DNA of 48,784 bases from a virus: positions 1 through 48,784 of IMG/VR virus record IMGVR_UViG_3300031521_000101; one strand, written 5' to 3'. The position numbers and the translations under genes were made by a program. Below, one piece after another: positions 19,784 to 38,317 of the stretch. Within the stretch, counting starts at the first letter, position 1, and the number at the start of each line of letters is the position of its first letter. The notes beneath the pieces are model-generated. The model saw only the letters and a list, made by a program, of their open reading frames with translations. It had not been told where the DNA came from and did not search any database.

Positions 19784-19786
19784 TTT

Positions 19787-20368: not shown

Positions 20369-20374
20369 TCATCA

Positions 20375-20713: not shown

Positions 20714-20714
20714 T

Positions 20715-21483: not shown

Positions 21484-21487
21484 AGCA

Positions 21488-21985
21488 ATGAATGACATTC
21501 TTAAATTTAATACAATTAACTTCAAAAAAGATTATACAGGTAATCATAATATAATAAAAGAATATCTTAGCATAAAAACTGAAATCATTTTTAAATATCC
21601 AAGTATGGATTTTAATTTACCACAGTTCTATGATAAAAAAATTCCTATATATTTTGTTTATGATAGAAACGATAATTTAAGTTCAAAAGACATAAGAATA
21701 GAAGAATTTGATTTTAATAGAATTTATAATGAAAAACTTCAAATTGTAGAATTAGTTGATCATGATATTTTTATATATCAGTCAATTTCAGAACAATATT
21801 TTTCTAGCATTTATATATTTCATATAAATTTAGAAAGAAATGAATATCTAAGAAAAAAAATATATTCTCATGATTATAAATTATTCATTTTCTTTGATAA
21901 TTATCAATTCATAATAAAATTAGTATTCTCTCCTAACATGAGAAAATATAAATTACAAAAACTAAATGATGAAACAGACAAATGA
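21488..21985 (+). CDS. Tagged hypothetical protein, 165 aa
   Basis: Unrecognised soluble protein rich in F, Y, D and N. KEYLSIKTEIIFKYPSMDF and several alternating strands in the middle. Ends SPNMRKYKLQKLNDETDK, a recognisable tag. 4-nt overlap with the next gene. Confidence 0.75.
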   Translation: MNDILKFNTINFKKDYTGNHNIIKEYLSIKTEIIFKYPSMDFNLPQFYDKKIPIYFVYDRNDNLSSKDIRIEEFDFNRIYNEKLQIVELVDHDIFIYQSISEQYFSSIYIFHINLERNEYLRKKIYSHDYKLFIFFDNYQFIIKLVFSPNMRKYKLQKLNDETDK

Positions 21986-22197
21986 AAAGAGGAGATAAAA
22001 TCACATCAAACGGTGACACTGGATATAGGGGATTGAAAGAATTCAAAGAATATATCATTCAAGATGTTTTTACTAATAGCTTTAATGAAAAATGCATTAG
22101 AGTTAATGGAGTAAATGGATTATATCCTATGAAATATTTTATAACATTAAAACAAATTAGAAAAGAAAAACTCAATAGAATATGTTGGAACAAATAA
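21982..22197 (+). CDS. KVGD-family tagged protein
   Basis: 71 residues. MKRGDKITSNGDTGYRG, KEYIIQDVFTNSFNEKCIRV, YFITLKQIRKEKLNRICWNK. A single KVGD unit placed directly before a different array family. 16-nt overlap with the next gene. Confidence 0.78.
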   Translation: MKRGDKITSNGDTGYRGLKEFKEYIIQDVFTNSFNEKCIRVNGVNGLYPMKYFITLKQIRKEKLNRICWNK

Positions 22198-22400
22198 AAG
22201 AATTTACATTTCAAACTGAATTAGATCAAAAAGCATACGTGGTTTATGAAGAATATATTGATATTCAAAGATATGTAACACAATTTGAATTTTATTCATT
22301 TATAAAGCAAAAAAAATGTAGTAACATTAAACCTTTTTATGATATTGCTTTAAAGCAATTAAGATTTGATAAATTAATTAAAATATGTACAATAAATTAG
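22182..22400 (+). CDS. Tagged helical protein (family F)
   Basis: 72 residues. Family pattern: ELDQKAYVVYEEYI, an FxSFIKxK segment, a Y-x-A segment, then LRFDKLIKICTIN. All predicted helix. First of six tandem copies to 23299; a seventh is at 45130. TAG stop; overlap 16 nt. Confidence 0.78.
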   Translation: MLEQIKEFTFQTELDQKAYVVYEEYIDIQRYVTQFEFYSFIKQKKCSNIKPFYDIALKQLRFDKLIKICTIN

Positions 22401-22576
22401 ATTATATTGCTTATGAATTATTTTTAGATTATGCACTATCATCTTGTGATGGATTAAGATACGATTATACTATTCATAGTTTTGTTAGAGAAGATAAAGA
22501 TTTTCAGAAAATATATTATGAAAAGGCAGTAATAGTAATAAGAAAAGAAAAACTACTACAATTATGCAAAAAATAA
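22385..22576 (+). CDS. Tagged helical protein (family F)
   Basis: 63 residues. KLDYIAYELFLDYALSSCDG, FVREDKDFQKIYYEKAVIVIRKEKLLQLCKK. TAA; 13-nt overlap with the next copy. Confidence 0.77.
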   Translation: MYNKLDYIAYELFLDYALSSCDGLRYDYTIHSFVREDKDFQKIYYEKAVIVIRKEKLLQLCKK

Positions 22577-22764
22577 CAGATTTAGACGACATTGCATATC
22601 AAATATACAGATTACATATAATAATGGAAAATAGAAATTATTATCGTAAATTTGAATCTTTTTGTGAATATAGAGATAAATATTCAAAATATTACTCTGA
22701 AGCTAAAATAAAATTAAGAAAAGAAAAACTTGAAAAACTAAACAAAATATGTTCAGTGAATTAG
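22564..22764 (+). CDS. Tagged helical protein (family F)
   Basis: 66 residues. DLDDIAYQIYRLHIIMENRN, ESFCEYRDKYSKYYSEAKIK, LRKEKLEKLNKICSVN. TAG stop; 16-nt overlap, and the next gene's ATG is inside KICS. Confidence 0.77.
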   Translation: MQKITDLDDIAYQIYRLHIIMENRNYYRKFESFCEYRDKYSKYYSEAKIKLRKEKLEKLNKICSVN

Positions 22765-22934
22765 AATTAGAATCATATGAAATTTATGAAAATCATACAA
22801 GAATTATTTTTAATGAATATCCAAATTCAATTGAATATTTCATTAAAAATAAGTCTGCATATAAACATTATTATGAAAAGGCAATAATTAGATTAAGAAA
22901 AGAAAAACTTGAAAAACTCAGAAAGAATACATAA
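22749..22934 (+). CDS. Tagged helical protein (family F)
   Basis: 61 residues. SELELESYEIYENHTRIIF, YFIKNKSAYKHYYEKAII, LRKEKLEKLRKNT. The C-terminal 20 residues nearly match the preceding copy, so this is a recent duplication. Confidence 0.77.
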   Translation: MFSELELESYEIYENHTRIIFNEYPNSIEYFIKNKSAYKHYYEKAIIRLRKEKLEKLRKNT

Positions 22935-23127
22935 CGAATTAGAAGAAAAAGCGTTTGAATTATATGAAAAATATATAAGAATAAAAAGTTTCAATTATTG
23001 GAATATTCTATACATAGACATTAACTATTTTATTGATCATAAGGAATTATATGAATCATATTTTGATGTAGCTAATATTATATTAAGAAAAGAAAAACTC
23101 AATAACATCAAAAAATATGCACACTGA
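22909..23127 (+). CDS. Tagged helical protein (family F), no ATG start
   Basis: Given with a TTG start at 22909 (72 residues). By alignment with its siblings the natural start would be at 22927, but the triplet there is ATA instead of ATG (ATA CAT AAC GAA TTA GAA). So the unit uses TTG or ATA, or is poorly translated. NELEEKAFELYEKYIRIKS, YFDVANIILRKEKLNNIKKY. Confidence 0.68.
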   Translation: MKNSERIHNELEEKAFELYEKYIRIKSFNYWNILYIDINYFIDHKELYESYFDVANIILRKEKLNNIKKYAH

Positions 23128-23299
23128 CTTAGAACAAACTGCACATGAACTATATGTAGATTTTATGAGAACTGAATGGTGTCTCAATTGGTATACAATT
23201 GATTTTTTTGTTGAACACAAAGAATCATATCAGGCATATTTCGATGCTGCAGTAAACAAATTAAGAAAAGACAAGCTTTTAAAATTATCGATAAAATGA
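23117..23299 (+). CDS. Tagged helical protein (family F)
   Basis: 60 residues. MHTDLEQTAHELYVDFMRTE, FFVEHKESYQAYFDAAVNK, LRKDKLLKLSIK. Last of the six copies; overlaps the first KVGD unit of the next array by 4 nt. Confidence 0.77.
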   Translation: MHTDLEQTAHELYVDFMRTEWCLNWYTIDFFVEHKESYQAYFDAAVNKLRKDKLLKLSIK

Positions 23300-23547
23300 A
23301 AAAAATAATAAAACCAAAGTTTAAAGTTGGAGACAGGGTAGTATATATCAGAAATGGATATAAACAATTAACTAAAAATAATACATATACTGTGTCATAT
23401 GTTTTAGAATGTGTTAGACCTGTTCAAGATCATATAACTTTAAAAGAAATGGGGGATTTTGATGATTTATTTTACATAAAAGATTTCATTTCTGTTTCAG
23501 AATATAGAAAAATGAAATTGATTAAATTATTAGAATATGAGCATTAA
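23296..23547 (+). CDS. KVGD-family tagged protein
   Basis: 83 residues. MKKIIKPKFKVGDRVVYIRN: eight extra residues before the signature. NTYTVSYVLECVRPV, then FISVSEYRKMKLIKLLEYEH. First of seven tandem units to 24871; 11-nt overlap. Confidence 0.8.
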   Translation: MKKIIKPKFKVGDRVVYIRNGYKQLTKNNTYTVSYVLECVRPVQDHITLKEMGDFDDLFYIKDFISVSEYRKMKLIKLLEYEH

Positions 23548-23770
23548 ATATGGTGATACAGTTATTTATATTGGAATACATAATCCTAATTTCATCAACG
23601 GAAATTCTTATATAATTGAGCATGTGATAGATGATGAAAATATAGAAAATTTTCATATCTATTATTATTTAAAAGGAATTGATTTTGAGGTTTGTGATTC
23701 TTTATATTTCATGTCACTAAAAGAATATAGAAAATTAAAACTTCAATTATTAGAACAATATGATATATAA
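23537..23770 (+). CDS. KVGD-family tagged protein
   Basis: 77 residues. MSIKYGDTVIYIGIHNPNFI, NSYIIEHVIDDENIENFHI, YFMSLKEYRKLKLQLLEQYDI. 11-nt overlap. Confidence 0.8.
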   Translation: MSIKYGDTVIYIGIHNPNFINGNSYIIEHVIDDENIENFHIYYYLKGIDFEVCDSLYFMSLKEYRKLKLQLLEQYDI

Positions 23771-23987
23771 TGTTGAACAATTTGATAAGATTGTATATGT
23801 TGGTGATGATGTTACTAAGTTAACATATGGAAATACATATTCAGTAGAATATAGTTTAACACATGACGTAAATACTTATATAACATTAGATGGATTTAAA
23901 GGAGTAGCTGATGTTTTTTATCTTAAAGATTTTATCACAAAAAAGGAATACAGAAAAATAAAATTAAAAAAGTTAAAAAATTTATGA
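23760..23987 (+). CDS. KVGD-family tagged protein (degenerate signature)
   Basis: 75 residues. MIYNVEQFDKIVYVGDDVTK replaces GDK with FDK. NTYSVEYSLTHDVNTYITL, DFITKKEYRKIKLKKLKNL. 4-nt overlap with the next unit. Confidence 0.79.
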   Translation: MIYNVEQFDKIVYVGDDVTKLTYGNTYSVEYSLTHDVNTYITLDGFKGVADVFYLKDFITKKEYRKIKLKKLKNL

Positions 23988-24214
23988 GAGTTAAAGAAGG
24001 AGATACAATTATTTATAATGGAAATCGTTATTATGACTTAATTAAAGGAAAGTCATATATAATAGAATTTACTATCAATGATTCTGATTATAATAATTTA
24101 CCTCATTTTTATTATCATTTAGAAAATAATTCTTCAAATTTTTATGACTCATGTGAGTTCATAACAATAACAGAGAATAGAAAATTAAAATTACAAAAAA
24201 TTAAAAATTTATGA
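23984..24214 (+). CDS. KVGD-family tagged protein
   Basis: 76 residues. MRVKEGDTIIYNGNRYYDL, KSYIIEFTINDSDYNN, EFITITENRKLKLQKIKNL. 4-nt overlap. A minus-strand frame across its end is a shadow. Confidence 0.79.
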   Translation: MRVKEGDTIIYNGNRYYDLIKGKSYIIEFTINDSDYNNLPHFYYHLENNSSNFYDSCEFITITENRKLKLQKIKNL

Positions 24215-24450
24215 TAAAAATTGGAGATAAAGTAATTTGTATAACTAATAAATGTGATTCTCTTAATAAATTTCAAGAATATACAATAATAGGTGCTTAT
24301 ATTAGATTTCCTAATAAAACATATAGTCACATAAGGGTTAATAATATTACACTAAGAGGATTTGATGATAATACTCATTACGATACAAATTTTTTCATAT
24401 CATCACAAGAATATAGAAAATTAAAAATAGAAAAGTTATGTTCAGAATAG
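24211..24450 (+). CDS. KVGD-family tagged protein
   Basis: 79 residues. MIKIGDKVICITNKCDSLNK, QEYTIIGAYIRF, FFISSQEYRKLKIEKLCSE. TAG stop inside the next start; 13-nt overlap. Confidence 0.8.
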   Translation: MIKIGDKVICITNKCDSLNKFQEYTIIGAYIRFPNKTYSHIRVNNITLRGFDDNTHYDTNFFISSQEYRKLKIEKLCSE

Positions 24451-24674
24451 GAGAAAAAATAGTTTATATGGGTACATGTGATTATTATAGTTCATTAATA
24501 AATTTTATGACATATACAATAAATGATTATCAATTAGATTATACACTTACTGATGCTGGAGAATATTTATTATCATTATCAGAAAAATCAGAAGGAAATT
24601 TATATTATTCTAATTTTTTTATTACATTAACAGAGTATAGAAAACTAAAATTAACTCAATTATGTTCAGAGTAG
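24438..24674 (+). CDS. KVGD-family tagged protein
   Basis: 78 residues. MFRIGEKIVYMGTCDYYSSL, MTYTINDYQLDYTLTDAG, FFITLTEYRKLKLTQLCSE. TAG stop; 13-nt overlap. Sister to the 24662 unit. Confidence 0.8.
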   Translation: MFRIGEKIVYMGTCDYYSSLINFMTYTINDYQLDYTLTDAGEYLLSLSEKSEGNLYYSNFFITLTEYRKLKLTQLCSE

Positions 24675-24871
24675 GAGAAAAAGTAGTTTATATAAAAAGA
24701 ACATATTATGGACTTAAATTAAATAGTATATCAACAATTAAAGAAGTTAAAGATTATAGCATATCATTAGAAGATTCTTATATAGGTTGGTGGTTCTCAA
24801 AAGATTGTTTTATAACATTAACAGAACATAGGAAAAATAAATTACAAAAATTACAAAATATATCAGAATAA
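24662..24871 (+). CDS. KVGD-family tagged protein (array end)
   Basis: 69 residues. MFRVGEKVVYIKRTYYGLKL, ISTIKEVKDYSISLE, FITLTEHRKNKLQKLQNISE. TAA stop with no start overlapping it; the next gene begins 46 nt on, behind its own -7 element. The tag is nevertheless kept. Confidence 0.8.
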   Translation: MFRVGEKVVYIKRTYYGLKLNSISTIKEVKDYSISLEDSYIGWWFSKDCFITLTEHRKNKLQKLQNISE

Positions 24872-25967: not shown

Positions 25968-26348
25968 ATGAAAATAGGTGATAAAATTTGTTGTGTATAT
26001 AATAAGTCTAATGATGATTATGATGATGATTATAATCAATACACCATAGTCAATATTAATAATTATAAAGACATTGAATATTATAATGATCTTCAATTTT
26101 ATGATGATTCTCTTAATAATAGGCAAGAATTATTAAAAAATAATAAGATTTATACTATACATAAAATTCTTTTACAGCATGGTGATTTACATGATAGTAA
26201 ATATGCATTTGAAGAGCCAGAACCATATAACGGTTCATCATTTTACGAATTATCTGAAATTTGTGATTATATGTTTAATAAAAAAAGATTTATCACTATA
26301 CAAGAATATAGAAAATTAAAGTTAAAGAAATTAAATGAAAATAGGTGA
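25968..26348 (+). CDS. KVGD-family tagged protein, long form
   Basis: 126 residues. MKIGDKICCVYNKSNDDYDD; a long insertion rich in D, Y and N (residues 15-55); KIYTIHKILLQHGD; FITIQEYRKLKLKKLNENR. First of six long-form units to 27691. 14-nt overlap; the tag's ATGAAAATAGGTGA is both ENR-stop and the next MKIGD. Confidence 0.79.
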   Translation: MKIGDKICCVYNKSNDDYDDDYNQYTIVNINNYKDIEYYNDLQFYDDSLNNRQELLKNNKIYTIHKILLQHGDLHDSKYAFEEPEPYNGSSFYELSEICDYMFNKKRFITIQEYRKLKLKKLNENR

Positions 26349-26607
26349 TGTAGTAATTTTCATAGAAGATGATCATACTAAATATTTAGATGATTATTAT
26401 TTAAATGATCTAAATTTTTTAATCAAAAATAGTAAATATAAAATAACAAATATACACAAAGATTTTGAAGATGATCATAATAAATATTTATCAATAAAAG
26501 GTTTCTCACGATATTTAAATTCAAAAAGATTTATATCTACACAAGAATATAGAAAGCTTAAATTAAAAAAATTAAATGAAAATAGGCGATATAATTTATT
26601 GCATTGA
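26335..26607 (+). CDS. KVGD-family tagged protein, long form
   Basis: 90 residues. MKIGDVVIFIEDDHTKYLDD, SKYKITNIHKDFED, RFISTQEYRKLKLKKLNENR plus RYNLLH. The frame runs past the usual stop position, giving a 32-nt overlap with the next unit. Confidence 0.77.
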   Translation: MKIGDVVIFIEDDHTKYLDDYYLNDLNFLIKNSKYKITNIHKDFEDDHNKYLSIKGFSRYLNSKRFISTQEYRKLKLKKLNENRRYNLLH

Positions 26608-26926
26608 TAATAGCTCTGATGATAAATATGACGATGATTGTAATCCATTCATTAATAAAGATTATAATTTTGAGAATGAACTATACAATAATAACAATAA
26701 GTATAATGATGACTCATTAAAAAATAATACATCCTACACTATTTATAAAATTTTTTTACAATCTGATAGCTCAAAATGGGTGAAAGAAGTATCTGATTCA
26801 AATAAAGAAGATGCATTTTTTGAATTGATTGAAATTACTGATTTTTTATTTAACAAAAAAAGATTTTTTACCAATATAGAATATAGGAAATTAAAATTAA
26901 AAAATTTAAATGAATATAGGGGATAA
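26576..26926 (+). CDS. KVGD-family tagged protein, long form
   Basis: 116 residues. MKIGDIIYCIDNSSDDKYDD, then an N/D/Y-rich insertion, TSYTIYKIFLQSDS, FFTNIEYRKLKLKNLNEYRG. Resembles the 25968 unit in length and in YTIxKIxLQ. 17-nt overlap. Confidence 0.78.
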   Translation: MKIGDIIYCIDNSSDDKYDDDCNPFINKDYNFENELYNNNNKYNDDSLKNNTSYTIYKIFLQSDSSKWVKEVSDSNKEDAFFELIEITDFLFNKKRFFTNIEYRKLKLKNLNEYRG

Positions 26927-27146
26927 ATTAATTTATATAGCACACAGTAATAGACGCACATTAGTATACGGTAAAACATATACACTATCCGAAATATGTG
27001 AAATGTCTGATAATGATAATTATAATGATTCTGTATGTTTAGTAGAAGAAGAATACCAGAATACTTATTTTTTTATGTCAGATTTTATATCAATTAAAGA
27101 ATATAGAAAACTAAAATTACAAAAAATAAATGAAAGTAGGAGATGA
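26910..27146 (+). CDS. KVGD-family tagged protein
   Basis: 78 residues. MNIGDKLIYIAHSNRRTLVY, KTYTLSEICEMSDND, DFISIKEYRKLKLQKINESRR. TGA stop; 17-nt overlap. Confidence 0.79.
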   Translation: MNIGDKLIYIAHSNRRTLVYGKTYTLSEICEMSDNDNYNDSVCLVEEEYQNTYFFMSDFISIKEYRKLKLQKINESRR

Positions 27147-27393
27147 AGTGATTTATATAAATGATAATCCATATAAATATTCAGATGATTTATATTGGGA
27201 TGAAGATAATTTTTTAGTTAAATATGAAAAATATACAATATCAGAAATAAAAATGGATATAGATATCACTGATAATTCTTACTACAGTTTAATATTAGAA
27301 GGTTGTCATTTAACTTTTAATACAGATAGATTTATGTTACCACAGCATTATAGAAAACTAAAATTACAACAGATAAATGAAAGTTGGAGATAA
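27130..27393 (+). CDS. KVGD-family tagged protein
   Basis: 87 residues. MKVGDEVIYINDNPYKYSDD, EKYTISEIKMDIDITD, RFMLPQHYRKLKLQQINESWR. 17-nt overlap, the same junction type as the preceding unit. Confidence 0.79.
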   Translation: MKVGDEVIYINDNPYKYSDDLYWDEDNFLVKYEKYTISEIKMDIDITDNSYYSLILEGCHLTFNTDRFMLPQHYRKLKLQQINESWR

Positions 27394-27691
27394 AGTTATA
27401 CTTATAGATACATCAGATTATTATAATTATAATGATGATTATAATGATCCATATAATAAAATTAAAATAAATAATACATATGAAATATCACTTATATTAG
27501 AGTATTTAAGAATTGGTGGTATTCGTCACCTTACTGATACTGATTTTTGTTATGAAGATACAGAATATTTAGAATTTAGATTTGTGGAATCTGAAACAAG
27601 AGGTTATTCATACAACACTAAAAGATTTATATCATTAAAGAAAGAAAGAAAACTTAAATTGCAAAATATATCTGATAAATATGAAAGATAA
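27377..27691 (+). CDS. KVGD-family tagged protein, long form
   Basis: 104 residues. MKVGDKVILIDTSDYYNYND, NTYEISLILEYLRIGG, RFISLKKERKLKLQNISDKYER. The ending ..YER overlaps the start of the next family by 11 nt. Confidence 0.79.
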   Translation: MKVGDKVILIDTSDYYNYNDDYNDPYNKIKINNTYEISLILEYLRIGGIRHLTDTDFCYEDTEYLEFRFVESETRGYSYNTKRFISLKKERKLKLQNISDKYER

Positions 27692-27956
27692 AGATATAAA
27701 ATTAAATATGACTGTTAAAATAATATCAAAATACAATAGACATTTAGAAACTTGTGTATTATACAAAATATTAAAAGAAAGAAATCAGAAGTACGCATAT
27801 GTAACTAAGATACATCCAGGTACATATCCTATCATATATAGTTTATCAGAAGATATTGATGTTGGAGGAGATCATTTTATTGGTGATGATTTTGAACCAT
27901 ACATAAAAGAAGAAAGAAAAAAGAAATTACAAAAGATATATAAACATAATGAATGA
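27681..27956 (+). CDS. Tagged beta-rich protein (family G)
   Basis: 91 residues. MKDKDIKLNMTVKIISKYNR, LYKILKERNQKYAYVTKI, DFEPYIKEERKKKLQKIYKHNE. First of four tandem copies. Probably a small barrel related in layout to KVGD proteins, but with its own signature (VKIIS, LKERNQxYAYV). Confidence 0.78.
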   Translation: MKDKDIKLNMTVKIISKYNRHLETCVLYKILKERNQKYAYVTKIHPGTYPIIYSLSEDIDVGGDHFIGDDFEPYIKEERKKKLQKIYKHNE

Positions 27957-28221
27957 GAAGTATATAAAAGTTCATATGAAAGTTAAATTTAATTCTAAAG
28001 AAAGATTAAAAACCAATGCATTATATAAAACTTTAATATACAAAAAACAGGATTATGCATATGTGAATTATCTATGTTTTTACGTAAATCCGCATTTATT
28101 TATTTTATCAGATGAAATTGATGGAATTGGAGACTATTTTCTTAGTGGAGAATTTGAACCATATATAAAAGAAGATAGAAAAATTAAACTAAAAAATATA
28201 TTTAATAAATATGAAAGATGA
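27949..28221 (+). CDS. Tagged beta-rich protein (family G)
   Basis: 90 residues. MNEKYIKVHMKVKFNSKERL, LYKTLIYKKQDYAYV, EFEPYIKEDRKIKLKNIFNKYER. TGA; 11-nt overlap. The C-terminal 18 residues are nearly identical to the next copy. Confidence 0.78.
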   Translation: MNEKYIKVHMKVKFNSKERLKTNALYKTLIYKKQDYAYVNYLCFYVNPHLFILSDEIDGIGDYFLSGEFEPYIKEDRKIKLKNIFNKYER

Positions 28222-28489
28222 TGATGTTAAATTACACAATAAAGTTAAAATAATATCAAAATATAATTGTAAATTAGAAGAAAGTTTGATATATAAAAGA
28301 ATGATAGAAAAAAATCAATCTTATGCATATGTGACTACAATATATTCAGAACATGTTCCAATCATATATGTATTATCAGATGAAGATGGTAATGATGGAG
28401 ATTTTTTTCATATTTCAGATTTTGTTGATTATATAAAAGAAGATAGAAAAATTAAACTAAAAAATATATTTGATAACTATGAAAGATGA
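28211..28489 (+). CDS. Tagged beta-rich protein (family G)
   Basis: 92 residues. MKDDDVKLHNKVKIISKYNC, IYKRMIEKNQSYAYVTTI, DFVDYIKEDRKIKLKNIFDNYER. TGA; 11-nt overlap. Confidence 0.78.
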   Translation: MKDDDVKLHNKVKIISKYNCKLEESLIYKRMIEKNQSYAYVTTIYSEHVPIIYVLSDEDGNDGDFFHISDFVDYIKEDRKIKLKNIFDNYER

Positions 28490-28757
28490 AGACATAAGAT
28501 TAAATATGAAAGTTAAATTAAATATGAATAATTTAAATGAAGAAAACGAACTATATTTAATATTAAAAGAAAGAAATCAATCTTATGCATACGTACACAA
28601 AAAAGTCTCAGATAATCCACCTTTATATATTTTGAAAGAAGATATTAATGAGGTTCATTATATTCATTTGTTTTATGATGTTGATTTTGATTCATATACA
28701 AAAGAAGACAGAAAGATAAAATTACAAAAGATATGTTTAATAAAGGAGATAAAGTAG
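28479..28757 (+). CDS. Tagged beta-rich protein (family G)
   Basis: 92 residues. Start chosen at ATG 28479 (MKDEDIRLNMKVKLN), matching its siblings; an in-frame TTG at 28470 is unlikely. LILKERNQSYAYVHKK; DFDSYTKEDRKIKLQKICLIKEIK. TAG stop in the next start; 25-nt overlap. Confidence 0.77.
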   Translation: MKDEDIRLNMKVKLNMNNLNEENELYLILKERNQSYAYVHKKVSDNPPLYILKEDINEVHYIHLFYDVDFDSYTKEDRKIKLQKICLIKEIK

Positions 28758-28957
28758 TTTATTTTGGTTATCGTTATGATAATTTAATATCAGGAAAATC
28801 ATACACAGTTTCAACAGTAATGATAAATACGAGAACACAGGTAGAATCATTATTATTAGAAAATGAGTCTAATAAAAATTCATATTTTTGTTTCTATTTT
28901 ATGTCAGAAAAATGTTTTAGAAAAGAAAAATTAGAAAAATTGAAAAATTTAGAATAA
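28733..28957 (+). CDS. KVGD-family tagged protein (operon end)
   Basis: 74 residues. MFNKGDKVVYFGYRYDNLIS, KSYTVSTVMINTRTQVE, FMSEKCFRKEKLEKLKNLE. Last gene of the 11-kb plus block; nothing overlaps its end, and the next promoter starts at 28960. Confidence 0.8.
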   Translation: MFNKGDKVVYFGYRYDNLISGKSYTVSTVMINTRTQVESLLLENESNKNSYFCFYFMSEKCFRKEKLEKLKNLE

Positions 28958-29014: not shown

Positions 29015-29521
29015 ATGAATAAAAATGCAACTTTTTTTGGCGGTGCTATAAATGATAGAACGACAACTCAATATAATGATAGTATTCTCATTGGAAAATT
29101 CTTAGCAGAGAATGACTACAAAATTAAAAACGGTGGCTATGGTGGCTTAATGGAAGCTGTTTCCAAAGGTGCTAATGAAGCAGGAGGAGAAGTAACTGGC
29201 TATACTTGTTTATCAATTGGATGTGCAAGAGGTAATAAATTTTTAACAGAAACAGTTCCTTCTGTTGATATTTATCAAAGATTAAGATTATTGATATCAG
29301 ATAGTGATATTTTTATAGTTCAACGTGGAGGAATTGGTACATTATCTGAAGTTTTTCTTCTATTAGATGGTATCAGAAAATTAAAAGTAAAGCCAAGAAT
29401 ATTCCTATTTGGAAAAGAATGGAATAATTTATTTGTCAATTTAACTGACTTTATGTCACCTGAACAAATATCAATGATCACTTTTTGTCAAGACTTTGAA
29501 GATTTTAAATTAATATTTTGA
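29015..29521 (+). CDS. LOG/SLOG-family nucleotide-binding protein
   Basis: 168 residues. Rossmann-like start MNKNATFFGGAINDRTTTQY, NGGYGGLMEAVSKGANEAGG at 39-58 and QRGGIGTLSEVFLLLDGIRK at 103-122. This is the LOG family (cytokinin riboside monophosphate phosphoribohydrolase, TIGR00725-type), whose signature is PGGxGTxxE; here Pro is replaced by Arg (R104). LOG enzymes release the base from nucleoside monophosphates, and related SLOG domains bind NAD-derived nucleotides in immune signalling. Activity of this copy is uncertain. No tag; own promoter. Confidence 0.85.
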   Translation: MNKNATFFGGAINDRTTTQYNDSILIGKFLAENDYKIKNGGYGGLMEAVSKGANEAGGEVTGYTCLSIGCARGNKFLTETVPSVDIYQRLRLLISDSDIFIVQRGGIGTLSEVFLLLDGIRKLKVKPRIFLFGKEWNNLFVNLTDFMSPEQISMITFCQDFEDFKLIF

Positions 29522-30424: not shown

Positions 30425-31006
30425 ATGAAATTATCTCAAAACTTATTTGAACTTTCAGAAGAAGACATTGAAACATCAAAGATGATGTACAATAAAGTGA
30501 TTAAATGCTTAGTTGTACCATATCACACTCAAAAACAACTTGAGTTAGATTATTCTCCAAATGTTTTTATGTTTCCTGAAAATGAAATGACAGAATCACA
30601 AGCAAAAAAATTCATCTCTATGGTTACCAATTCACCTTTACAGGAATTTTTGATCATCACAAAGAGTTCTAATATCATTTATGATATGGTTGATTGCTGT
30701 GTTCGCATTTTAACTGAAAATAATGTGATTATAACTTGTCCAGTTAAGACATTTGCTGCAAATTTATGGGACATATCATTATTGATATTGAACAACAATG
30801 AACACCAAATAACTGAAGCTGAAAAGTCTAAATCTCATATAATGATAGGTGATATTATAACAAAAATAGAAAATGCAACTTCTTTTACAGATGAAGAAGC
30901 TGATGAACTTTCTAAAACTGTTGATATCATTGGTGATGAGATAATTTCATATAGACTAAAAGAAATGCTAAATGAAAAACGTCAAACAGGATTTAGAAAA
31001 AGATAA
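30425..31006 (+). CDS. Hypothetical protein, 193 aa
   Basis: Unrecognised; acidic and helical with an alpha/beta N-terminal half (EFLIITKSSNIIYDMVDCCV, ILTENNVIITCP). The C-terminus EMLNEKRQTGFRKR is basic. The last 35 nt overlap the PTH2 gene start at 30972. Confidence 0.77.
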   Translation: MKLSQNLFELSEEDIETSKMMYNKVIKCLVVPYHTQKQLELDYSPNVFMFPENEMTESQAKKFISMVTNSPLQEFLIITKSSNIIYDMVDCCVRILTENNVIITCPVKTFAANLWDISLLILNNNEHQITEAEKSKSHIMIGDIITKIENATSFTDEEADELSKTVDIIGDEIISYRLKEMLNEKRQTGFRKR

Positions 31007-31292
31007 ATTATTTATACTCATTGATAAAAAACTTGATGTCGCTTATGGAGGAGTCCAAGGTGCTCATGCATCATGTCAATGGTTACTTGATCATAAATAG
31101 GTACAAACCTGGAATAATCAATATTTAATTTTTCTCTCTGTAGAACTTGAAAAATGGATATTTAAGTTAAATCTTAAAAAATTAGATTTCACAGTTTTCT
31201 ATGAACCAGATTTAGATAATAAACCAACTGCAGTAGCAGTACATGGTAATGATTCTCTATTTCGTAATTTAAAACTATGGGGAGCTTTATAA
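30972..31292 (+). CDS. Peptidyl-tRNA hydrolase (PTH2 family) with in-frame amber codon
   Basis: 106 codons plus TAA, with TAG at codon 43 (31098-31100). Before it: KLFILIDKKLDVAYGGVQGA and HASCQWLLDHK, equivalent to PTH2 'VLVVRxDLxMxxGKxAAQxxHA'. After it, in the same frame: TWNNQYLIFLSVELEKWIFK, KLDFTVFYEPDLDNKPTAVAV and NLKLWGAL, equivalent to the PTH2 KVVVxxxxExxLxxL...GLxxxxxxDAGxTxxxxxxxT core. Both halves look conserved and no frameshift is needed, so either the TAG is decoded (tRNA with anticodon CTA 23 nt after the stop) or this is a fresh nonsense mutant. PTH2 frees tRNA from stalled peptidyl-tRNA in the cytoplasm. No tag. Confidence 0.82.
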
Positions 31293-31305
31293 GCTCCCCA
31301 TTTTT
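31278..31305 (+). terminator. Intrinsic terminator containing the PTH2 stop codon
   Basis: 10-bp GC-rich stem (31278-31287 TGGGGAGCTT and 31291-31300) with loop TAT, then five T. The TAA stop begins in the loop. It lies between PTH2 and the tRNA, so the tRNA needs readthrough, processing or its own start. Confidence 0.82.
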
Positions 31306-31315
31306 AATCAAAATT

Positions 31316-31386
31316 GCTTATTTCGTCCAATGGTAGGGCTATAGACTCTAAATCTATCTATGTCGGTTCGAGCCCGATGGTGAGCA
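31316..31386 (+). tRNA. tRNA-Sup(CTA): tRNA with anticodon CTA (amber suppressor type)
   Basis: Full cloverleaf by hand. Acceptor 31316-31322 with 31379-31385 (three G-T pairs), U8 at 31323, D stem GTCC/GGGC with loop AATGGTA, anticodon stem ATAGA/TCTAT with loop CTCTAAA, variable loop of 4, T stem GTCGG/CCGAT with loop TTCGAGC, discriminator A at 31386. Anticodon 31348-31350 = CTA, which reads UAG. No CCA is encoded. The charging amino acid cannot be read from the sequence. Shifting the loop to give TCT (Arg) breaks the stem. Confidence 0.88.
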
Positions 31387-31424
31387 CAAATATATTTTTC
31401 ATGTAATATGTTTATTTTTTTTAG

Positions 31425-31524: not shown

Positions 31525-31941
31525 ATGATAGTACAATGTTCAATTGAAAATCCTAGTCATACATTAGAAACAACTAATAATACTTTTTATGATAATACAT
31601 ATTCTAATGCTATTGTTGAATTTAATAACATGCTGGATAATGCAATATCAATAAAAAATAATGGTGATTATTTGGGAGGAATATTATGTTTTCTAAAAGA
31701 AATACATAAAAATACATCAATTGGATTAAAAGGGACAAAAGACTTTATTGACATTTTGAGAATGCTTAGAATATTAAATGATTCAAATCCTATATCAATA
31801 AGTGATGAAATATATTCAATAAAAGGCATTAATATATCTGAATTGTTTTATATAATAGAAAACAATCAAGATAACAATATGAAAAATTTAAGAACATTCA
31901 TAAGAAAGAAAAAACTCAAAGAGATAATGGAGAATGTTTAA
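31525..31941 (+). CDS. Tagged helical protein (family H)
   Basis: 138 residues. AIVEFNNMLDNAISIKNNGD, a 'G-L-x-F-L-K-E' stretch, ISELFYIIENNQDNN, then LRTFIRKKKLKEIMENV. The 'NxxLNxxxxYK...xLxxLIxxD' plan recurs in the genes at 33190, 33621 and 45335. First gene behind the 31468 promoter; 8-nt overlap with the next. Confidence 0.78.
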   Translation: MIVQCSIENPSHTLETTNNTFYDNTYSNAIVEFNNMLDNAISIKNNGDYLGGILCFLKEIHKNTSIGLKGTKDFIDILRMLRILNDSNPISISDEIYSIKGINISELFYIIENNQDNNMKNLRTFIRKKKLKEIMENV

Positions 31942-32257
31942 AGCAGGAGATAAAGTTTATTTTATTAAAAGATTATCATATAATCTTAGTTTATCATATG
32001 ATAAAGAATTAACAGTAGGATTAATTATTGAGAATCGTCATAATATTATAAGAGGTTACCCTTCTAATACTACAATTCGAATATTAGATACAATTGGAGG
32101 TGATTATTATGAACAACAATTTATATCATCAAATGATTATTTTAATCTGAAAAGGAAAGAAAAATTAAAAAAACTCAAATATATTCAAAGAAATAATGGA
32201 AAATGCTTAAATATAATGATAAAGTATATTTTATTAAAAGTTTATGGTACAATATAG
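31934..32257 (+). CDS. KVGD-family tagged protein with C-terminal extension
   Basis: 107 residues. MFKAGDKVYFIKRLSYNLSL, ELTVGLIIENRHNII, FNLKRKEKLKKLKYIQ, then 16 more residues that overprint the next gene (55-nt overlap, TAG stop). The extension suggests a lost stop after the tag. Confidence 0.77.
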   Translation: MFKAGDKVYFIKRLSYNLSLSYDKELTVGLIIENRHNIIRGYPSNTTIRILDTIGGDYYEQQFISSNDYFNLKRKEKLKKLKYIQRNNGKCLNIMIKYILLKVYGTI

Positions 32258-32457
32258 ATTTACCGTCTAATACTGAATTAACAATATCTCATGTATTTCG
32301 TACTAATCATCCTCTAAAAAAAGGAGAATGGACTACTGTAATTAAAATAAGAGAAGATACAAACGAAGATGATTATTATTCATATCAATTTTTGTCATTA
32401 AAAGAATATAGAAAAGAAAAATTAAAAACGATAGAAAGACATGAATGCTTGGACTAA
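32203..32457 (+). CDS. KVGD-family tagged protein
   Basis: 84 residues. MLKYNDKVYFIKSLWYNIDL is close to the preceding unit (KVYFIKRLSYNLSL). ELTISHVFRTNHPL, FLSLKEYRKEKLKTIERHECLD. 17-nt overlap with the next gene. Confidence 0.79.
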   Translation: MLKYNDKVYFIKSLWYNIDLPSNTELTISHVFRTNHPLKKGEWTTVIKIREDTNEDDYYSYQFLSLKEYRKEKLKTIERHECLD

Positions 32458-32692
32458 AAAACATAATGTGTTATTCAATTTTATTGATAAAAAAATAAAA
32501 TTAGATAGTGAAAAATTTAATCTAATATCATATAAGATTGCAAATAATTCAACAGATTGTATAGCAATAAGAGTTATTTATTGTAATACTTCAATATCAA
32601 GAGAAGTTATTTTTTCAAAGATAATAATATATCTTAATGAATATGATATTTTTGTTAGAAAAACAAAGATTGAAAATTTATCAAAGATATGA
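32441..32692 (+). CDS. Tagged small protein (family K)
   Basis: 83 residues. FNFIDKKIKLDSEKFNLISY is shared in outline with the 32689 gene (FNFINHSIKKDNILYELISY). Ends DIFVRKTKIENLSKI. Probably an alpha/beta fold; function unknown. 4-nt overlap. Confidence 0.76.
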   Translation: MNAWTKKHNVLFNFIDKKIKLDSEKFNLISYKIANNSTDCIAIRVIYCNTSISREVIFSKIIIYLNEYDIFVRKTKIENLSKI

Positions 32693-32997
32693 GTTTGTTA
32701 ACTTGGTTGAGAAATGGTACTAAATATTTTAATTTTATAAATCATAGTATAAAAAAAGATAATATCTTATATGAACTTATTTCATATAAGATATTATGGA
32801 CAAATGATCCTGAAATAAGATTTACTATAAATTATTATCCTAATGATGATATTGGAATTATCACATATAGAAATATCAAATTCTCAGATAGAACATTTTT
32901 ATTAAAAGATTATGAAAAATTTATTAGAAAATATAAATTAGACAAATTAAATGGAAATAAAAAGAAAGGAGATGATGATTTATATACTAAATCATGA
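32689..32997 (+). CDS. Tagged small protein (family K)
   Basis: 102 residues. FNFINHSIKKDNILYELISY, then tag YEKFIRKYKLDKLNGN followed by a 13-residue extension (KKKGDDDLYTKS). Codons 25-36 contain a perfect 15-bp inverted repeat (32761-32795). 47-nt overlap with the next frame. Confidence 0.75.
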   Translation: MSLLTWLRNGTKYFNFINHSIKKDNILYELISYKILWTNDPEIRFTINYYPNDDIGIITYRNIKFSDRTFLLKDYEKFIRKYKLDKLNGNKKKGDDDLYTKS

Positions 32998-33193
32998 TGA
33001 AATATTTACTCATAATACAGATTATCAAATTGATGATATAAAAATTTTCAATAAATCGAATCATGAAAGATTTTTAATTATGATTACATATTTAGTTTCT
33101 GATAATAATTATACCATGATGAGCTACAATATTAATTCTCATCATTATCTAAAATTTTTAAGAAAAATGAAATTATCTAAATTAATCATATGA
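32951..33193 (+). CDS. Tagged small protein (family K)
   Basis: 80 residues from the first ATG; ATGATG at 32972-32977 gives a shorter 73- or 72-residue protein and a smaller overlap. DYQIDDIKIFNKSNHERFLI, HHYLKFLRKMKLSKLII. 4-nt overlap with the next gene. Confidence 0.72.
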   Translation: MEIKRKEMMIYILNHDEIFTHNTDYQIDDIKIFNKSNHERFLIMITYLVSDNNYTMMSYNINSHHYLKFLRKMKLSKLII

Positions 33194-33624
33194 TTAAAAT
33201 AAAAGCGACATTTGATATAAAGACATACTCGTCATATAATACTAATATGTTCAGAGAAGAAAATATAAAATTCAATTATAATTCAATGTCAAATTTATTT
33301 AATATAATATTGAATAAATTAGTTGAATATAAAAATAGAGATGTTTATTTCTGCTCCATTAATGGACTAATAGGAATAATGAAAGTTGAATTGAAATCTA
33401 TAAATGAATCTGATTTAGATGATTTTTTTACAATTTTTCAATATGTTTTTGATGTTTTAGATAATAAGAGAATTGTATTTGGAGGATGGTATCATTATAT
33501 AAATCAGGATATTAATGACATTGAAAATATTACTATGCATCAACTTCATCAACTTATCAGTAGTGATGAATATAAGAAAAGATTCACCAGAAAAATAAAG
33601 TTACAAAAATTGTCAAGTTTATGA
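33190..33624 (+). CDS. Tagged helical protein (family H)
   Basis: 144 residues. FNIILNKLVEYKNRDVYFCS, DDFFTIFQYVFDVLDNKR, ITMHQLHQLISSDEYKKR, FTRKIKLQKLSSL. Same plan as the 33621 and 45335 genes. 4-nt overlap. Confidence 0.78.
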   Translation: MIKIKATFDIKTYSSYNTNMFREENIKFNYNSMSNLFNIILNKLVEYKNRDVYFCSINGLIGIMKVELKSINESDLDDFFTIFQYVFDVLDNKRIVFGGWYHYINQDINDIENITMHQLHQLISSDEYKKRFTRKIKLQKLSSL

Positions 33625-34067
33625 TACCAACATCAATAGTAGGAGACAATGAATTAAATAGATTAAAAATAGAAGGTAATAGATTTCTCAAAGAATATCC
33701 TCATTATTATGATAGTTATCACCTAAATTTATCATTTAAAACTATATTAAATAAATTAATAGAATATAATTCAAATAATGATGAATTTAAAAGTAGAAGT
33801 GGATTAGAATATAAATTAATTCAAGAACTTAAATTTGATGGCTGTGTATTTAATGGAGATGTTCATAATTTTTTAGATTTATATAATTACAAAAATTACA
33901 TATTTAATTTTCGTAGATTATCAAATTATGGCTCTCAAAGAATAAATGATGACATCATTAAACTAAAAGATTTTGAATTAGAAGATTTTCTATATCTAAT
34001 CAATAATGATGTAGATTATAACATTATCATAAGAAGAAAAAAACTTAAAACATTATCAAAGTTATGA
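33621..34067 (+). CDS. Tagged helical protein (family H)
   Basis: 148 residues. FKTILNKLIEYNSNNDEFKS, FNGDVHNFLDLYNYKNYIF, NFRRLSNYGSQRINDDIIKL, FELEDFLYLINNDVDYNIII, RRKKLKTLSKL. Closest relative is the 45335 gene. 4-nt overlap. Confidence 0.78.
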   Translation: MIPTSIVGDNELNRLKIEGNRFLKEYPHYYDSYHLNLSFKTILNKLIEYNSNNDEFKSRSGLEYKLIQELKFDGCVFNGDVHNFLDLYNYKNYIFNFRRLSNYGSQRINDDIIKLKDFELEDFLYLINNDVDYNIIIRRKKLKTLSKL

Positions 34068-34435
34068 TAGAATATTATAATGTAGATTATACAATGTCAA
34101 GTCCTAATGAAGACATACATGATAAACGAATATACAGTATCATTAAAAATCATGTGGAAAATTATATAATAATACACAAAAAAGCACCTCATATTTATGT
34201 CGGAAAAGATTGCATTAATTTTCTATTATTTAATGAGCATTTTATAATGAAATCTATAAAATCAGGGGTACCTTATATTGGTATGTTATGTGGCTGTTAT
34301 GTTTATATATCATTTGATGAATTAGAAAATAATGATTTATATTTATCTCCACATGAAATAAATTTCAAACAATTTAAAAGGAAATTGAAAATTGAACAAC
34401 TAAATAATTCATTCAATGAAAATAATAAAGTTTGA
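34064..34435 (+). CDS. Tagged hypothetical protein, 123 aa
   Basis: Unrecognised alpha/beta protein. APHIYVGKDCINFLLFNEHF and GVPYIGMLCGCYVYISFDEL; tag FKQFKRKLKIEQLNNSFNENN. It resembles the 34416 gene in the 'PxIYVxxDxxxxL' region, so both may be one divergent family. 20-nt overlap. Confidence 0.75.
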   Translation: MIEYYNVDYTMSSPNEDIHDKRIYSIIKNHVENYIIIHKKAPHIYVGKDCINFLLFNEHFIMKSIKSGVPYIGMLCGCYVYISFDELENNDLYLSPHEINFKQFKRKLKIEQLNNSFNENNKV

Positions 34436-34757
34436 AGTTGAAATATTTGATGATGTAAATAAAAACACTAAAAATTTTTATAAATTACTATTCAAAAAAT
34501 TACGAAAAGAATTCAAAAATAGTGAAGTTGTTGTTGTATTTAGTATTGATATGATGTCAAAGTTAAATAGTATATATTGCAAAAGGAAACCACTTATAAT
34601 GTATCAGACAAATGATAACATAAAACCAAATGATATATTTATTTATACATATTGTGAATTTGTTTATAATGATATTAATTCAACAGAATCTATAATATTA
34701 AAATATTACAGAAAAGAAAAACTTAAAAAAATATGCTCAATTCAGGACATAAAATAG
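34416..34757 (+). CDS. Tagged hypothetical protein, 113 aa
   Basis: KIIKFEVEIFDDVNKNTKNF, EVVVVFSIDMMSKLNSIYCK, KYYRKEKLKKICSIQDIK. TAG stop; its last 25 nt, read one frame over, are the N-terminus of the next KVGD unit. Confidence 0.75.
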   Translation: MKIIKFEVEIFDDVNKNTKNFYKLLFKKLRKEFKNSEVVVVFSIDMMSKLNSIYCKRKPLIMYQTNDNIKPNDIFIYTYCEFVYNDINSTESIILKYYRKEKLKKICSIQDIK

Positions 34758-34981
34758 TATGCATCAATAATAGTAATTTATCAGATAGATCAAAATTATT
34801 ATTAAACCATATTTACACAACAAAAAAAACATCATCATTTTTAGGTAAGTCTAAAAAAACAGAATCAAAAATTGGTTATAGAGTTGAATTAGAAGGAAAT
34901 GATAATTATTATTTCGAGTATAGATTCATAACATTAAGAGAATATAGGAAGCAAAAACTAAATAAATTATGTTCAAAATAG
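34733..34981 (+). CDS. KVGD-family tagged protein
   Basis: 82 residues. MLNSGHKIVCINNSNLSDRS has H for D in the signature. HIYTTKKTSSFLGKSKKTES, FITLREYRKQKLNKLCSK. TAG; 13-nt overlap. Confidence 0.79.
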   Translation: MLNSGHKIVCINNSNLSDRSKLLLNHIYTTKKTSSFLGKSKKTESKIGYRVELEGNDNYYFEYRFITLREYRKQKLNKLCSK

Positions 34982-35229
34982 GAGATAAAGTTGTATGTAT
35001 AAATGATAAAGGTGTAAATAAAACAGACAATCCTTTTTCTTTTAATAAAAAATTAGAAGTTATTAAATACAACAACTATACAATAAAATCAATAGACACA
35101 ACTTATTATACTTGTAGAGTGGGACTATATGAACTAATTGAATTCTATTATGCAGATAGATTTATACTATTAAAAGATTATAGAAAACAAAAACTTATTA
35201 AATTATGTTCAAGTCAGGAGATAAAGTAG
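34969..35229 (+). CDS. KVGD-family tagged protein
   Basis: 86 residues. MFKIGDKVVCINDKGVNKTD, NNYTIKSIDTTYYTCRVGL, FILLKDYRKQKLIKLCSSQEIK. TAG; 25-nt overlap. Confidence 0.8.
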   Translation: MFKIGDKVVCINDKGVNKTDNPFSFNKKLEVIKYNNYTIKSIDTTYYTCRVGLYELIEFYYADRFILLKDYRKQKLIKLCSSQEIK

Positions 35230-35444
35230 TTTGTATTAATAGAGATTATAGAAAAAAATTCAATTTAACTAATAAATTATATAATGTATCATCATTTATT
35301 AAATCAGATAAAACAATTTATCAACATGATTTAATAATACTTGATAATGAAAGATATGGACATTATGCAAAATATTTTTTAACATTAAAAGAATATCGAA
35401 AAGAAAAACTTATTAAATTATGTTCAAGCCAGGTGATAAAATAG
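35205..35444 (+). CDS. KVGD-family tagged protein
   Basis: 79 residues. MFKSGDKVVCINRDYRKKFN, KLYNVSSFIKSDKTIY, FLTLKEYRKEKLIKLCSSQVIK. TAG; 25-nt overlap. Sister to the 35420 unit. Confidence 0.8.
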   Translation: MFKSGDKVVCINRDYRKKFNLTNKLYNVSSFIKSDKTIYQHDLIILDNERYGHYAKYFLTLKEYRKEKLIKLCSSQVIK

Positions 35445-35665
35445 TTTGTAATGATAAAAAATACAGAGAAGATAATAATATACCTAATAAAATATTAGAA
35501 GTTATAGATTATCCTGATGAAAATTTCAAAATGTATTTTGAAAAAGCAGGACTTATTACAATAAAAGAGTTGAAATATGGATATCCATATCACAAATTTA
35601 TATCATTAAAATATCATAGAAAAATACAAATTATCATATTAAATCTAAATATAAATGATAAGTGA
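35420..35665 (+). CDS. KVGD-family protein with decayed tag
   Basis: 81 residues. MFKPGDKIVCNDKKYREDNN, KILEVIDYPDENFKMYF, then FISLKYHRKIQIIILNLNINDK, where RKxKLxKL has become RKIQIIIL. It is followed by a non-KVGD gene, so the junction here was rearranged. TGA; 11-nt overlap. Confidence 0.77.
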   Translation: MFKPGDKIVCNDKKYREDNNIPNKILEVIDYPDENFKMYFEKAGLITIKELKYGYPYHKFISLKYHRKIQIIILNLNINDK

Positions 35666-35954
35666 TTCAAATCTTTTTGACTATATAGAAAATCTAAATC
35701 TCAAAAAATCTAAATCTGGATGTGACAAATATCATATCATTAATAATGATTATATGATATGCATTGAATCTTCTGTAAATGTTTTTTTAATTGATAGAAA
35801 AACTAATATGTATAAAGATAAATATAAATTTATTTCTAACATAAAAGAATTAAAAAATGTATACAAATTAAAAACAGGTAAAGATATAGAAATTTTAATG
35901 AGAAAAGAAAAACTTAAACAATTAGAATTATGTTCAAGCCAGGTGATAAAGTAG
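35655..35954 (+). CDS. Tagged protein of another family inside the KVGD array
   Basis: 99 residues. LFDYIENLNLKKSKSGCDKY, MICIESSVNVFLIDRKTN, tag EILMRKEKLKQLELCSSQVIK. Body unrelated to KVGD, but its end carries the same junction peptide CSSQVIK as the 35205 gene, showing that a different body was joined to the standard junction. Confidence 0.77.
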   Translation: MISDSNLFDYIENLNLKKSKSGCDKYHIINNDYMICIESSVNVFLIDRKTNMYKDKYKFISNIKELKNVYKLKTGKDIEILMRKEKLKQLELCSSQVIK

Positions 35955-36007
35955 TATATGTAAATAATATGTTCAAGCCAGGGGATAAAGTAGTATGCAT
36001 CAATAAT
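35930..36007 (+). repeat. 39-nt direct repeat duplicating a KVGD start
   Basis: 35930-35968 and 35969-36007 both encode MFKPGDKVV followed by (Y/C)(V/I)NN; I count 34 of 39 matching bases. The second ATG (35969) is in frame with the first. Confidence 0.88.
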
Positions 36008-36193
36008 GATTTAACTTATAATTCAGAATTGATATTAAACCAAATTTATATTATAAATTCAATTTGGGAAGATTATGTTGGAATAAAAAATAAAAATGGA
36101 TATTCTGAATATCTTGAGAGTAGATTCATAACATTAAAAGAATATAGAAAACTAAAACTTATTAAGATATGTTCAATCAAGGAGATAAAGTAG
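35930..36193 (+). CDS. KVGD-family tagged protein with doubled N-terminus
   Basis: 87 residues from 35930, or 74 from 35969. MFKPGDKVVYVNN then MFKPGDKVVCINNDLTYNSE; QIYIINSIWEDYVGI; FITLKEYRKLKLIKICSIKEIK. TAG; 25-nt overlap. A partial unit duplicated in place; either start could work. Confidence 0.8.
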   Translation: MFKPGDKVVYVNNMFKPGDKVVCINNDLTYNSELILNQIYIINSIWEDYVGIKNKNGYSEYLESRFITLKEYRKLKLIKICSIKEIK

Positions 36194-36399
36194 TATGTAT
36201 AAATAATAGTCACACAATAAATAAAAAATTATTATTAAATAATATTTATACTATTAATTCGATATCTAATTTATCTAATGGTGATTATGTCGGTATAAAA
36301 ATAGATAATGATTATTTTGAATTCGATTATAGTAGATTTATGCTATTATCAAAAATTAGAAAAAATAAATTAGAAAAAATAAAAACATATTCAGAATAA
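36169..36399 (+). CDS. KVGD-family tagged protein (array end)
   Basis: 76 residues. MFNQGDKVVCINNSHTINKK, NIYTINSISNLSNGDYVGI, FMLLSKIRKNKLEKIKTYSE. No gene overlaps its end (91 nt to the next), yet the tag is retained. Confidence 0.8.
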   Translation: MFNQGDKVVCINNSHTINKKLLLNNIYTINSISNLSNGDYVGIKIDNDYFEFDYSRFMLLSKIRKNKLEKIKTYSE

Positions 36400-37544: not shown

Positions 37545-37769
37545 ATGAAAATAGGAGATAAAGTTATATTTAGTGATGTTTTTTATGAACATCATAAAGA
37601 TATGACTGAAAATAAAAATAGTATTTTCACAATAAGTTTTGTAAATTATTACAGTGGAGTTGTCAATTTACACGAATTTTCAAATTTTAATTTTGGGTAT
37701 ATTCATTTAGTATTATTATCAGAGAACAGAAAAGAAAAATTGAAAAAATTAAATAATATAAAGATATGA
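37545..37769 (+). CDS. KVGD-family tagged protein, isolated
   Basis: 74 residues. MKIGDKVIFSDVFYEHHKDM, SIFTISFVNYYSGVVNL, LVLLSENRKEKLKKLNNIKI. A lone unit among conserved genes, overlapping the NMNAT start by 4 nt. Confidence 0.79.
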   Translation: MKIGDKVIFSDVFYEHHKDMTENKNSIFTISFVNYYSGVVNLHEFSNFNFGYIHLVLLSENRKEKLKKLNNIKI

Positions 37770-38317
37770 ATAAATTCGGAGTTATTTTAGCAAGGATTCA
37801 ACCAGTACACAATGGTCACATGGCATTAATCAAAAAAGCGTGTGAGGAAAATGAATCAGTAGTAATACTAGTTGGAAGTGCAAATAAAGTTGATTCAAGA
37901 AATCCAATTCCAGTTAGCATTAGAATTGAGATGTTAAAAGATGCATTAAAAGAAGCTGATTTAATTAATAAATGTAAAATTGTACCATTAGATGATTTAA
38001 CTACAGAAAGTGATAATTCTATTGAATGGGGGTTTTATCTTTATACTAAAATAGTAGATCAAATTAAAGATAGCTGCTTCACAATGTATTATTCTGATGG
38101 ATTTGAAATTATTACTAAATGGTTTCCAGGATTCATGTTCAAAAATAATGTATCACTTGTTCTATTAGCAAGAGGCACGGTTGAAGATGGCGTGTCAGCC
38201 ACTGATGTTAGAAAGGCTATATTAAGCAATGATGCAGATTTGAAAAAAATAGTACCAAAATCAGTTTATATCAATAGAAATACTATTAAATCATTCATTG
38301 AAATGAATAAAGAATGA
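37766..38317 (+). CDS. NMN adenylyltransferase (NadM-like)
   Basis: 183 residues, a normal length. The nucleotidyltransferase signature is RIQPVHNGHMALI (10-22), a variant of GRFQPxHxGH with A for the first G and I for F, both catalytic histidines (15, 18) kept. VGSAN at 36-40, SRNPIPVSIRIEML at 44-57, and VSATDVRKAIL (143-153), the ISxTxxR motif. It joins ATP and nicotinamide mononucleotide to give NAD+. In phages such enzymes occur in NAD+-restoring counter-defence; a nicotinamide phosphoribosyltransferase partner is not in the window. No tag. Confidence 0.88.
   Translation: MNKFGVILARIQPVHNGHMALIKKACEENESVVILVGSANKVDSRNPIPVSIRIEMLKDALKEADLINKCKIVPLDDLTTESDNSIEWGFYLYTKIVDQIKDSCFTMYYSDGFEIITKWFPGFMFKNNVSLVLLARGTVEDGVSATDVRKAILSNDADLKKIVPKSVYINRNTIKSFIEMNKE

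Follow-up and report, generated by a model that had tools for sequence, protein, structure and literature searches.

A PTH2-like phage gene with a conserved in-frame amber codon and its candidate gating by a phage-encoded suppressor tRNA

The window analyzed here (48,784 bases) is part of the AT-rich genome of a giant phage and holds a small PTH2-like gene of the peptidyl-tRNA hydrolase family that is split by an in-frame TAG and lies close to a tRNA gene with a CTA anticodon (Table 1). Is the split frame a real gene, and, if so, could the tRNA read its amber codon and thereby control its product?

The split gene and the adjacent tRNA

The open reading frame reads MKNVKQDL...LLDHK, TAG, VQTWNNQYLIF...LWGAL, and, as originally predicted, codon 43 is the TAG (31098-31100), from which 63 sense codons run on to the TAA at 31292. 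The last 35 nt of the preceding gene also contain the PTH2 start, an arrangement that would allow coupled translation. A terminator and then a CTA tRNA had been predicted downstream; the CTA anticodon indeed sits in an intact tRNA (31316-31387), but the terminator had been misplaced, because the hairpin overlaps the end of the gene. One stem pair of this hairpin covaries in relatives (GGGGAGC/GCTCCCC to GGGGTGC/GCACCCC), and the stems of both hairpin and tRNA, judged by eye, vary among relatives in a pair-preserving way. Terminator-like sites numbered three in the region versus 0.4 expected.

Table 1. Features of the PTH2 locus, numbered from the first base of the window
Feature	Position	Strand	Remarks
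Gene preceding PTH2, no family match	30425..31006	+	35-nt overlap of its 3' end with PTH2
PTH2-like gene with one in-frame amber	30972..31292	+	106 aa if the TAG is read
In-frame TAG, codon 43	31098..31100	+	next base G (purine); kept in 8/8 close relatives
Post-amber part	31101..31292	+	holds family-invariant W47, F76, E78, P79, D80 and T86; purifying selection
Terminator-like hairpin	31277..31301	+	11 pairs, T-rich tail; overlaps last PTH2 codons and TAA
Predicted amber suppressor tRNA (anticodon CTA)	31316..31387	+	ARAGORN; Rfam 49 bits

A small gene with an in-frame stop invites the explanation of a pseudogene or a sequencing error. In a different sample, however, a 168-kb contig carries the window with 1 mismatch. 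All eight close relatives (L001-L008; 91-99% identity, on other contigs), one of them in an independent assembly, have retained both the codon-43 TAG and the tRNA. Changes were mostly synonymous on both sides of the window TAG; in three comparisons, dN/dS was 0.14, 0.23, and 0.07 past the TAG and 0.11, 0.11, and 0.16 ahead of it. With independent assemblies in agreement and purifying selection acting past the TAG, assembly error and decay of the 3' half, the two findings that would have undone the original prediction, both fail as explanations. Together with the restriction to TAG and the recurrence in cultured isolates described below, these data leave error or decay a negligible probability.

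The window protein alone had no Pfam match. The joined protein matched phrog_3668 with 27.3 bits versus 17.3 for the second part alone, and PF01981 was matched by 10/10 relatives in alignment A3 (best 9.3e-10). A profile of the relatives matched the solved PTH2 structure 2zv3 at 4.5e-9. Furthermore, an AF2 model of the joined protein reached a pLDDT of 91, and its ten best Foldseek matches in the PDB, each with a probability of 1.00, were PTH2 structures or unnamed relatives of the fold. Thus, the gene is PTH2-like as judged by its relatives and its modeled fold, on which the predicted identity holds, although not on the window protein by itself. In the model, residue 43 lies in a loop of variable length between helix 23-40 and strand 51-57. 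Most invariant residues come after codon 43, and a stub of 42 residues would therefore not be expected to function as a PTH2.

The catalytic set of archaeal PTH2 is Lys-Asp-Thr. With the archaeal and eukaryotic proteins (PF01981; 2zv3, 3erj, and 1q7s), the amber-type phage proteins share the fold and conserved H32, D80, and T86; in alignment A4, D80 and T86 are invariant, whereas the catalytic lysine motif (GKxAAQ) is replaced and its lysine missing. This makes hydrolase activity of the amber-type proteins uncertain, and peptidyl-tRNA hydrolysis by them is no more than plausible.

Ambers in PTH2 and HD-domain genes of other phages

Two surveys, each covering phages of IMG/VR plus GenBank, gave 189 PTH2 loci in 132 clusters at 90% identity. 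For 59 of the 132 clusters, the stretch from the first in-frame stop upstream up to the conserved domain contained no ATG, GTG, or TTG. The stop in question was TAG in 57, TAA in 2, and TGA in none, and an ATG stood 1-6 codons ahead of the TAG in 56 of the 57. N-terminal ambers fell at codons 2-7 in 58/59 cases, usually at codon 3-5; typical starts (asterisk, stop) are MK*I, MS*I, MT*I, MCL*V, and MKDT*I. A loop amber like that of the window occurs, for example, in L082, L083, L085, and L091, and LR756501 (735 kb) has both an N-terminal and a loop amber. Internal TAA and TGA counts from this survey are unreliable, as the profile runs past natural stops. A blind scan of 1.07 Mb sought an ATG, at most 5 codons, a stop, and then 60 open codons, and returned PTH2 with TAG 43 times, with TGA 0 times, and with TAA once, against a near-equal background of other genes across the three stops (22, 19, and 29). 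On the PTH2 tree, the state (amber or none) switches at least 15 times, indicating repeated gain or loss. In a literature search covering few subscription papers, we found no link of phage PTH2 with ambers, and prior reports are possible.

Some phages add a second, canonical, amber-free PTH2, a difference from the archaeal and eukaryotic families. It was found in four phages of the N-terminal-amber kind, and its presence suggests that the amber-gated form is a specialized paralogue. Two PTH2 genes, one canonical and stop-free and the other amber-gated, are seen in each of G009-G012. Several further variants were observed. L202 may have an ochre version, with a PTH2 start of ATG GCT TAA compared with ATG ACG TAG in its relative L198. 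The gene after PTH2 is also amber-started (MK*IT..., M*IN...) in L114 (4320), L115 (4320), and L117 (4340), and is conserved in the three. In L214 (3249-3995), L216 (1709-2452), and L228 (1930-2691), an HNH-like endonuclease (YENHHIxP) is joined to a second copy of the PTH2 N-terminus that includes the amber, as if a homing element had invaded an amber-gated PTH2.

An HD-domain gene lies beside PTH2, mostly just upstream, or is fused to it in 23 loci. Its product belongs to phrog_14850 (no assigned function) and matches Pfam HD at E 5e-4, which is below the cut-off. This gene usually opens with an amber of its own (MSYL*N, ML*N, MK*T, or MNT*I). Cultured phages show the same arrangement. Phage XacN1 has two CUA tRNAs for which its authors searched for a target and found none (PMC5852040); its HD-PTH2 fusion opens ATG AAG TAG, the annotated start being a later in-frame ATG. 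Its sister phage CM1 reads MK*TLNKLKN with no ATG near. As a forward test, cultured phages were searched with the CM1 HD-PTH2 protein and four were read. Ambers were present in three of them (Serratia BF, MTH*; Cronobacter GAP32, MAQ*; Salmonella Arash, ML*), while RaK2 was without one. The HD genes of BF and GAP32 also contain an internal amber, and that of GAP32 is annotated in pieces. In Arash, a tRNA that ARAGORN calls CTA and that is annotated as tRNA-Phe lies about 460 nt beyond the HD gene (L372, 2801-2875).

Among standard-code loci, a tRNA-CTA was present in 49/61 with an amber and in 31/59 without, raw counts that ignore relatedness; phylogenetically independent pairs, of which only 5 were usable, gave no significant association. 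Whole-genome tRNA calls were made by ARAGORN, a pattern search having been dropped because it missed the known CUA tRNAs of XacN1. Phage pT24 has a CTA tRNA among just 3 tRNAs in its 234,670 bases. No CTA tRNA was called by ARAGORN for two contigs with an amber PTH2, G016 (221 kb, 0 tRNAs) and G014 (236 kb, 52 tRNAs), either of which may be incomplete. The 31 amber-free loci with a tRNA-CTA by PTH2 indicate that reading a PTH2 amber is not all that keeps the tRNA in those phages; tRNA and PTH2 may have been paired before the amber arose, or for a different purpose. No common amino-acid identity of the CTA tRNAs was found, the nearest isotypes spreading over 16 kinds, and the inserted amino acid may be unimportant. 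The predicted link between product and control is supported by the recurrence of PTH2 amber and tRNA together in dozens of unrelated phages that otherwise use the standard code.

Genetic code, start sites, and reading of the amber

Stop-codon-recoded phages have UAG read by a phage suppressor tRNA, and a role in late-gene timing has been proposed (PMC10879173, PMC8346664). Partial reassignment of this sort, with TAG becoming sense genome-wide late in infection and PTH2 merely one of its carriers, would account for the tRNA-CTA, and the code-15 Lak phages do have PTH2 relatives. Reading TAG as sense, however, raised coding density only from 0.696 to 0.712 in the 168-kb genome of the window's phage (G1) and from 0.752 to 0.769 in a 256-kb relative (G3), a gain too small for code 15, for which density should rise by 5-10% or more; nor do the late genes have many in-frame TAGs. 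Long ORFs in these two genomes end in TAG 7 and 6 times and in TGA 78 and 67 times. Shorter window ORFs end in TAG in 22 of 135 cases, indicating that TAG is still a stop. Codon-position tests, which replaced a six-frame BLAST and a first startless filter whose output was dominated by shadow ORFs and conserved 5' leaders, showed a conserved in-frame TAG in no real gene other than PTH2 between G1 and G3 in a codon-aware frame scan, and in none but PTH2 and the HD gene between G010 and G009 (359- and 481-kb genomes). By these measures, the phage keeps the standard genetic code, and we regard reassignment as very unlikely. The likeness to the code-15 phages (Lak and crAss-like) lies in a phage-encoded suppressor tRNA for UAG; the difference is that here the standard code is kept and ambers are confined to PTH2, with or without HD. 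In Lak-A2 (L011, about 2830-2960), the PTH2 frame has no start codon and a ten-A run upstream is a possible frameshift site; the Lak-B7 frame, unlike it, has an ATG.

A misread start would also remove the need for suppression in the N-terminal class, translation beginning or reinitiating after the TAG at AUU, GUU, or GUG. The codon after the amber is indeed often ATT, and it is GTG in Mycobacterium phages, but AGC, ACA, AAC, and CTG are found there too. Shine-Dalgarno-like sites at the correct spacing served the ATG ahead of the amber in 24/58 cases and the codon after it in 0/59, and the explanation is inapplicable to codon 43 of the window and to the other loop ambers. In the Mycobacterium phages (Bixzunavirus and Myrnavirus; L139, L365-L368, L140, and L364), PTH2 opens RTG TAG GTG in 7/7 read. 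Their database start is the GTG directly after the TAG, a possible start that we count against gating by the amber; the RTG ahead of the TAG lies at a spacing from a TANNNT box that, in our reading, could fit a leaderless mRNA begun before the TAG. Overall, a start after the amber seems unlikely, if somewhat less so than a changed code.

The sequence around the ambers further favors reading. The following base was A 50, G 15, C 2, and T 2 times, compared with A 37, G 37, C 34, and T 33 after terminal TAGs of the same loci, so that purines follow the amber in 65/69 cases versus 74/141 after ordinary terminal TAGs (Fisher 1e-10). Purines at +4 favor amber suppression, and a change from C to A can raise it up to tenfold with SupE (PMC6266110). 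Two hallmarks of programmed readthrough, a conserved in-frame stop with purifying selection after it and a permissive context, are found here. Full-length PTH2 should need the TAG to be read, as predicted, and the adjacent tRNA would be its obvious reader on the sequence evidence.

A candidate feed-forward gate and its parallels

We consider it probable that amber suppression by the phage tRNA gates PTH2, and HD as well, as a feed-forward switch. The conserved amber, the selection past it, the start ahead of it, the permissive context, the near-exclusivity to PTH2 and HD, and the association with the tRNA are all borne by the sequences. From them we infer actual readthrough, the logic of the gate, the activity of the enzyme, and the reason for gating. 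A standard-code phage would place UAG in a PTH2-like gene, often in its HD partner too, and would encode a tRNA(CUA), usually close to PTH2. Full-length protein would then need the tRNA(CUA) to be transcribed, processed, and charged and to beat release factor 1, so that gene and tRNA would jointly make up a coherent feed-forward (AND) gate. Transcripts made early or by leakage would give nothing but a dead peptide (1-6 or 42 residues), and the product level would climb with suppression activity. Suppression or a shortage of release factor 1 should cause peptidyl-tRNA trouble; with a product of the peptidyl-tRNA hydrolase family, coupling its synthesis to suppression would make functional sense. 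PTH2 and HD may both maintain tRNA, and the need for this may rise when suppression is active. Against the gate, the hairpin between PTH2 and the tRNA in the window makes co-transcription uncertain, and a strong suppressor would extend the TAG-ended window ORFs counted above.

A role in sensing or timing, as originally suggested, is conjectural. The main rival to the simple gate is an autoregulatory sensor, in which the UAG would gauge the competition between release factor 1 and suppressor or the peptidyl-tRNA load, much as the in-frame UGA of the RF2 gene gauges RF2. In one version, early ambers (M-K-stop) would be counterparts of the lambda bar minigenes: drop-off there produces peptidyl-tRNA, on which the encoded enzyme family acts. 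The confinement of N-terminal ambers to codons 2-7 (58/59) fits this version, product and signal would be linked, and peptidyl-tRNA drop-off in early elongation is documented (PMC10192219). Codon 43 and the HD-gene ambers, however, do not fit a minigene, and the amber-type proteins lack the catalytic lysine of the archaeal motif (GKxAAQ), which makes their hydrolase activity uncertain. We therefore hold the sensor doubtful, though a more serious contender than either a changed code or a misread start, and prefer the feed-forward gate.

Several known systems resemble such a gate in part. In prfB (RF2), an in-frame UGA is passed by a frameshift and senses the gene's own product. The likeness is an in-frame stop in a translation-factor-like gene that ties expression to the decoding state; the difference is frameshifting and own-product sensing there versus a dedicated tRNA supplied here. 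Gag-Pol and the tobamovirus replicase use UAG readthrough by host tRNAs to make two useful products. They share with the phage genes a conserved in-frame UAG in a permissive context, whereas the stubs of 1-42 aa here look useless. A synthetic "leak dampener" of the feed-forward type removes leaky expression by means of a suppressor tRNA (PMC7969014). It likewise combines an amber in the target with a suppressor tRNA under linked control, but it is engineered, while the phage arrangement is natural and recurrent.

More tentatively, and with somewhat less than even confidence, we propose a widespread natural circuit of standard-code phages, an amber-gated module for translation maintenance made of a PTH2-like gene, HD, and tRNA-CUA. 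In it, the main task of the suppressor would be to license one or two genes, with the product acting back on suppression or on the load of peptidyl-tRNA. Such a circuit, if true, would explain the orphan CUA tRNAs of cultured jumbo phages; amber-suppressor tRNAs of standard-code phages that had been without a target would gain a specific one. Recognition of amber PTH2 and HD genes would also correct gene starts and splits in deposited genomes, for example GAP32, and would offer a small, cultured, testable case of how recoding could begin, or serve as a switch, while the whole code stays unchanged.

Elsewhere in the window, dozens of small and otherwise dissimilar ORFs (8045-11690 on the minus strand; 18026-24871, 25968-28957, and 31525-36399 on the plus strand) share a C-terminal motif, approximately (E)YRKxKLxKL. 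They form a large paralogous array whose tail is possibly a targeting or tethering tag. A SLOG/lysine-decarboxylase-like protein (PF18306, E 7e-13; phrog DprA-like) is encoded at 29015-29521. By eye, the product of 37766-38317 resembles a nicotinamide-nucleotide adenylyltransferase and that of 40207-41211 an RNA ligase with an EKxDG motif, which may point to roles in NAD metabolism or RNA repair.
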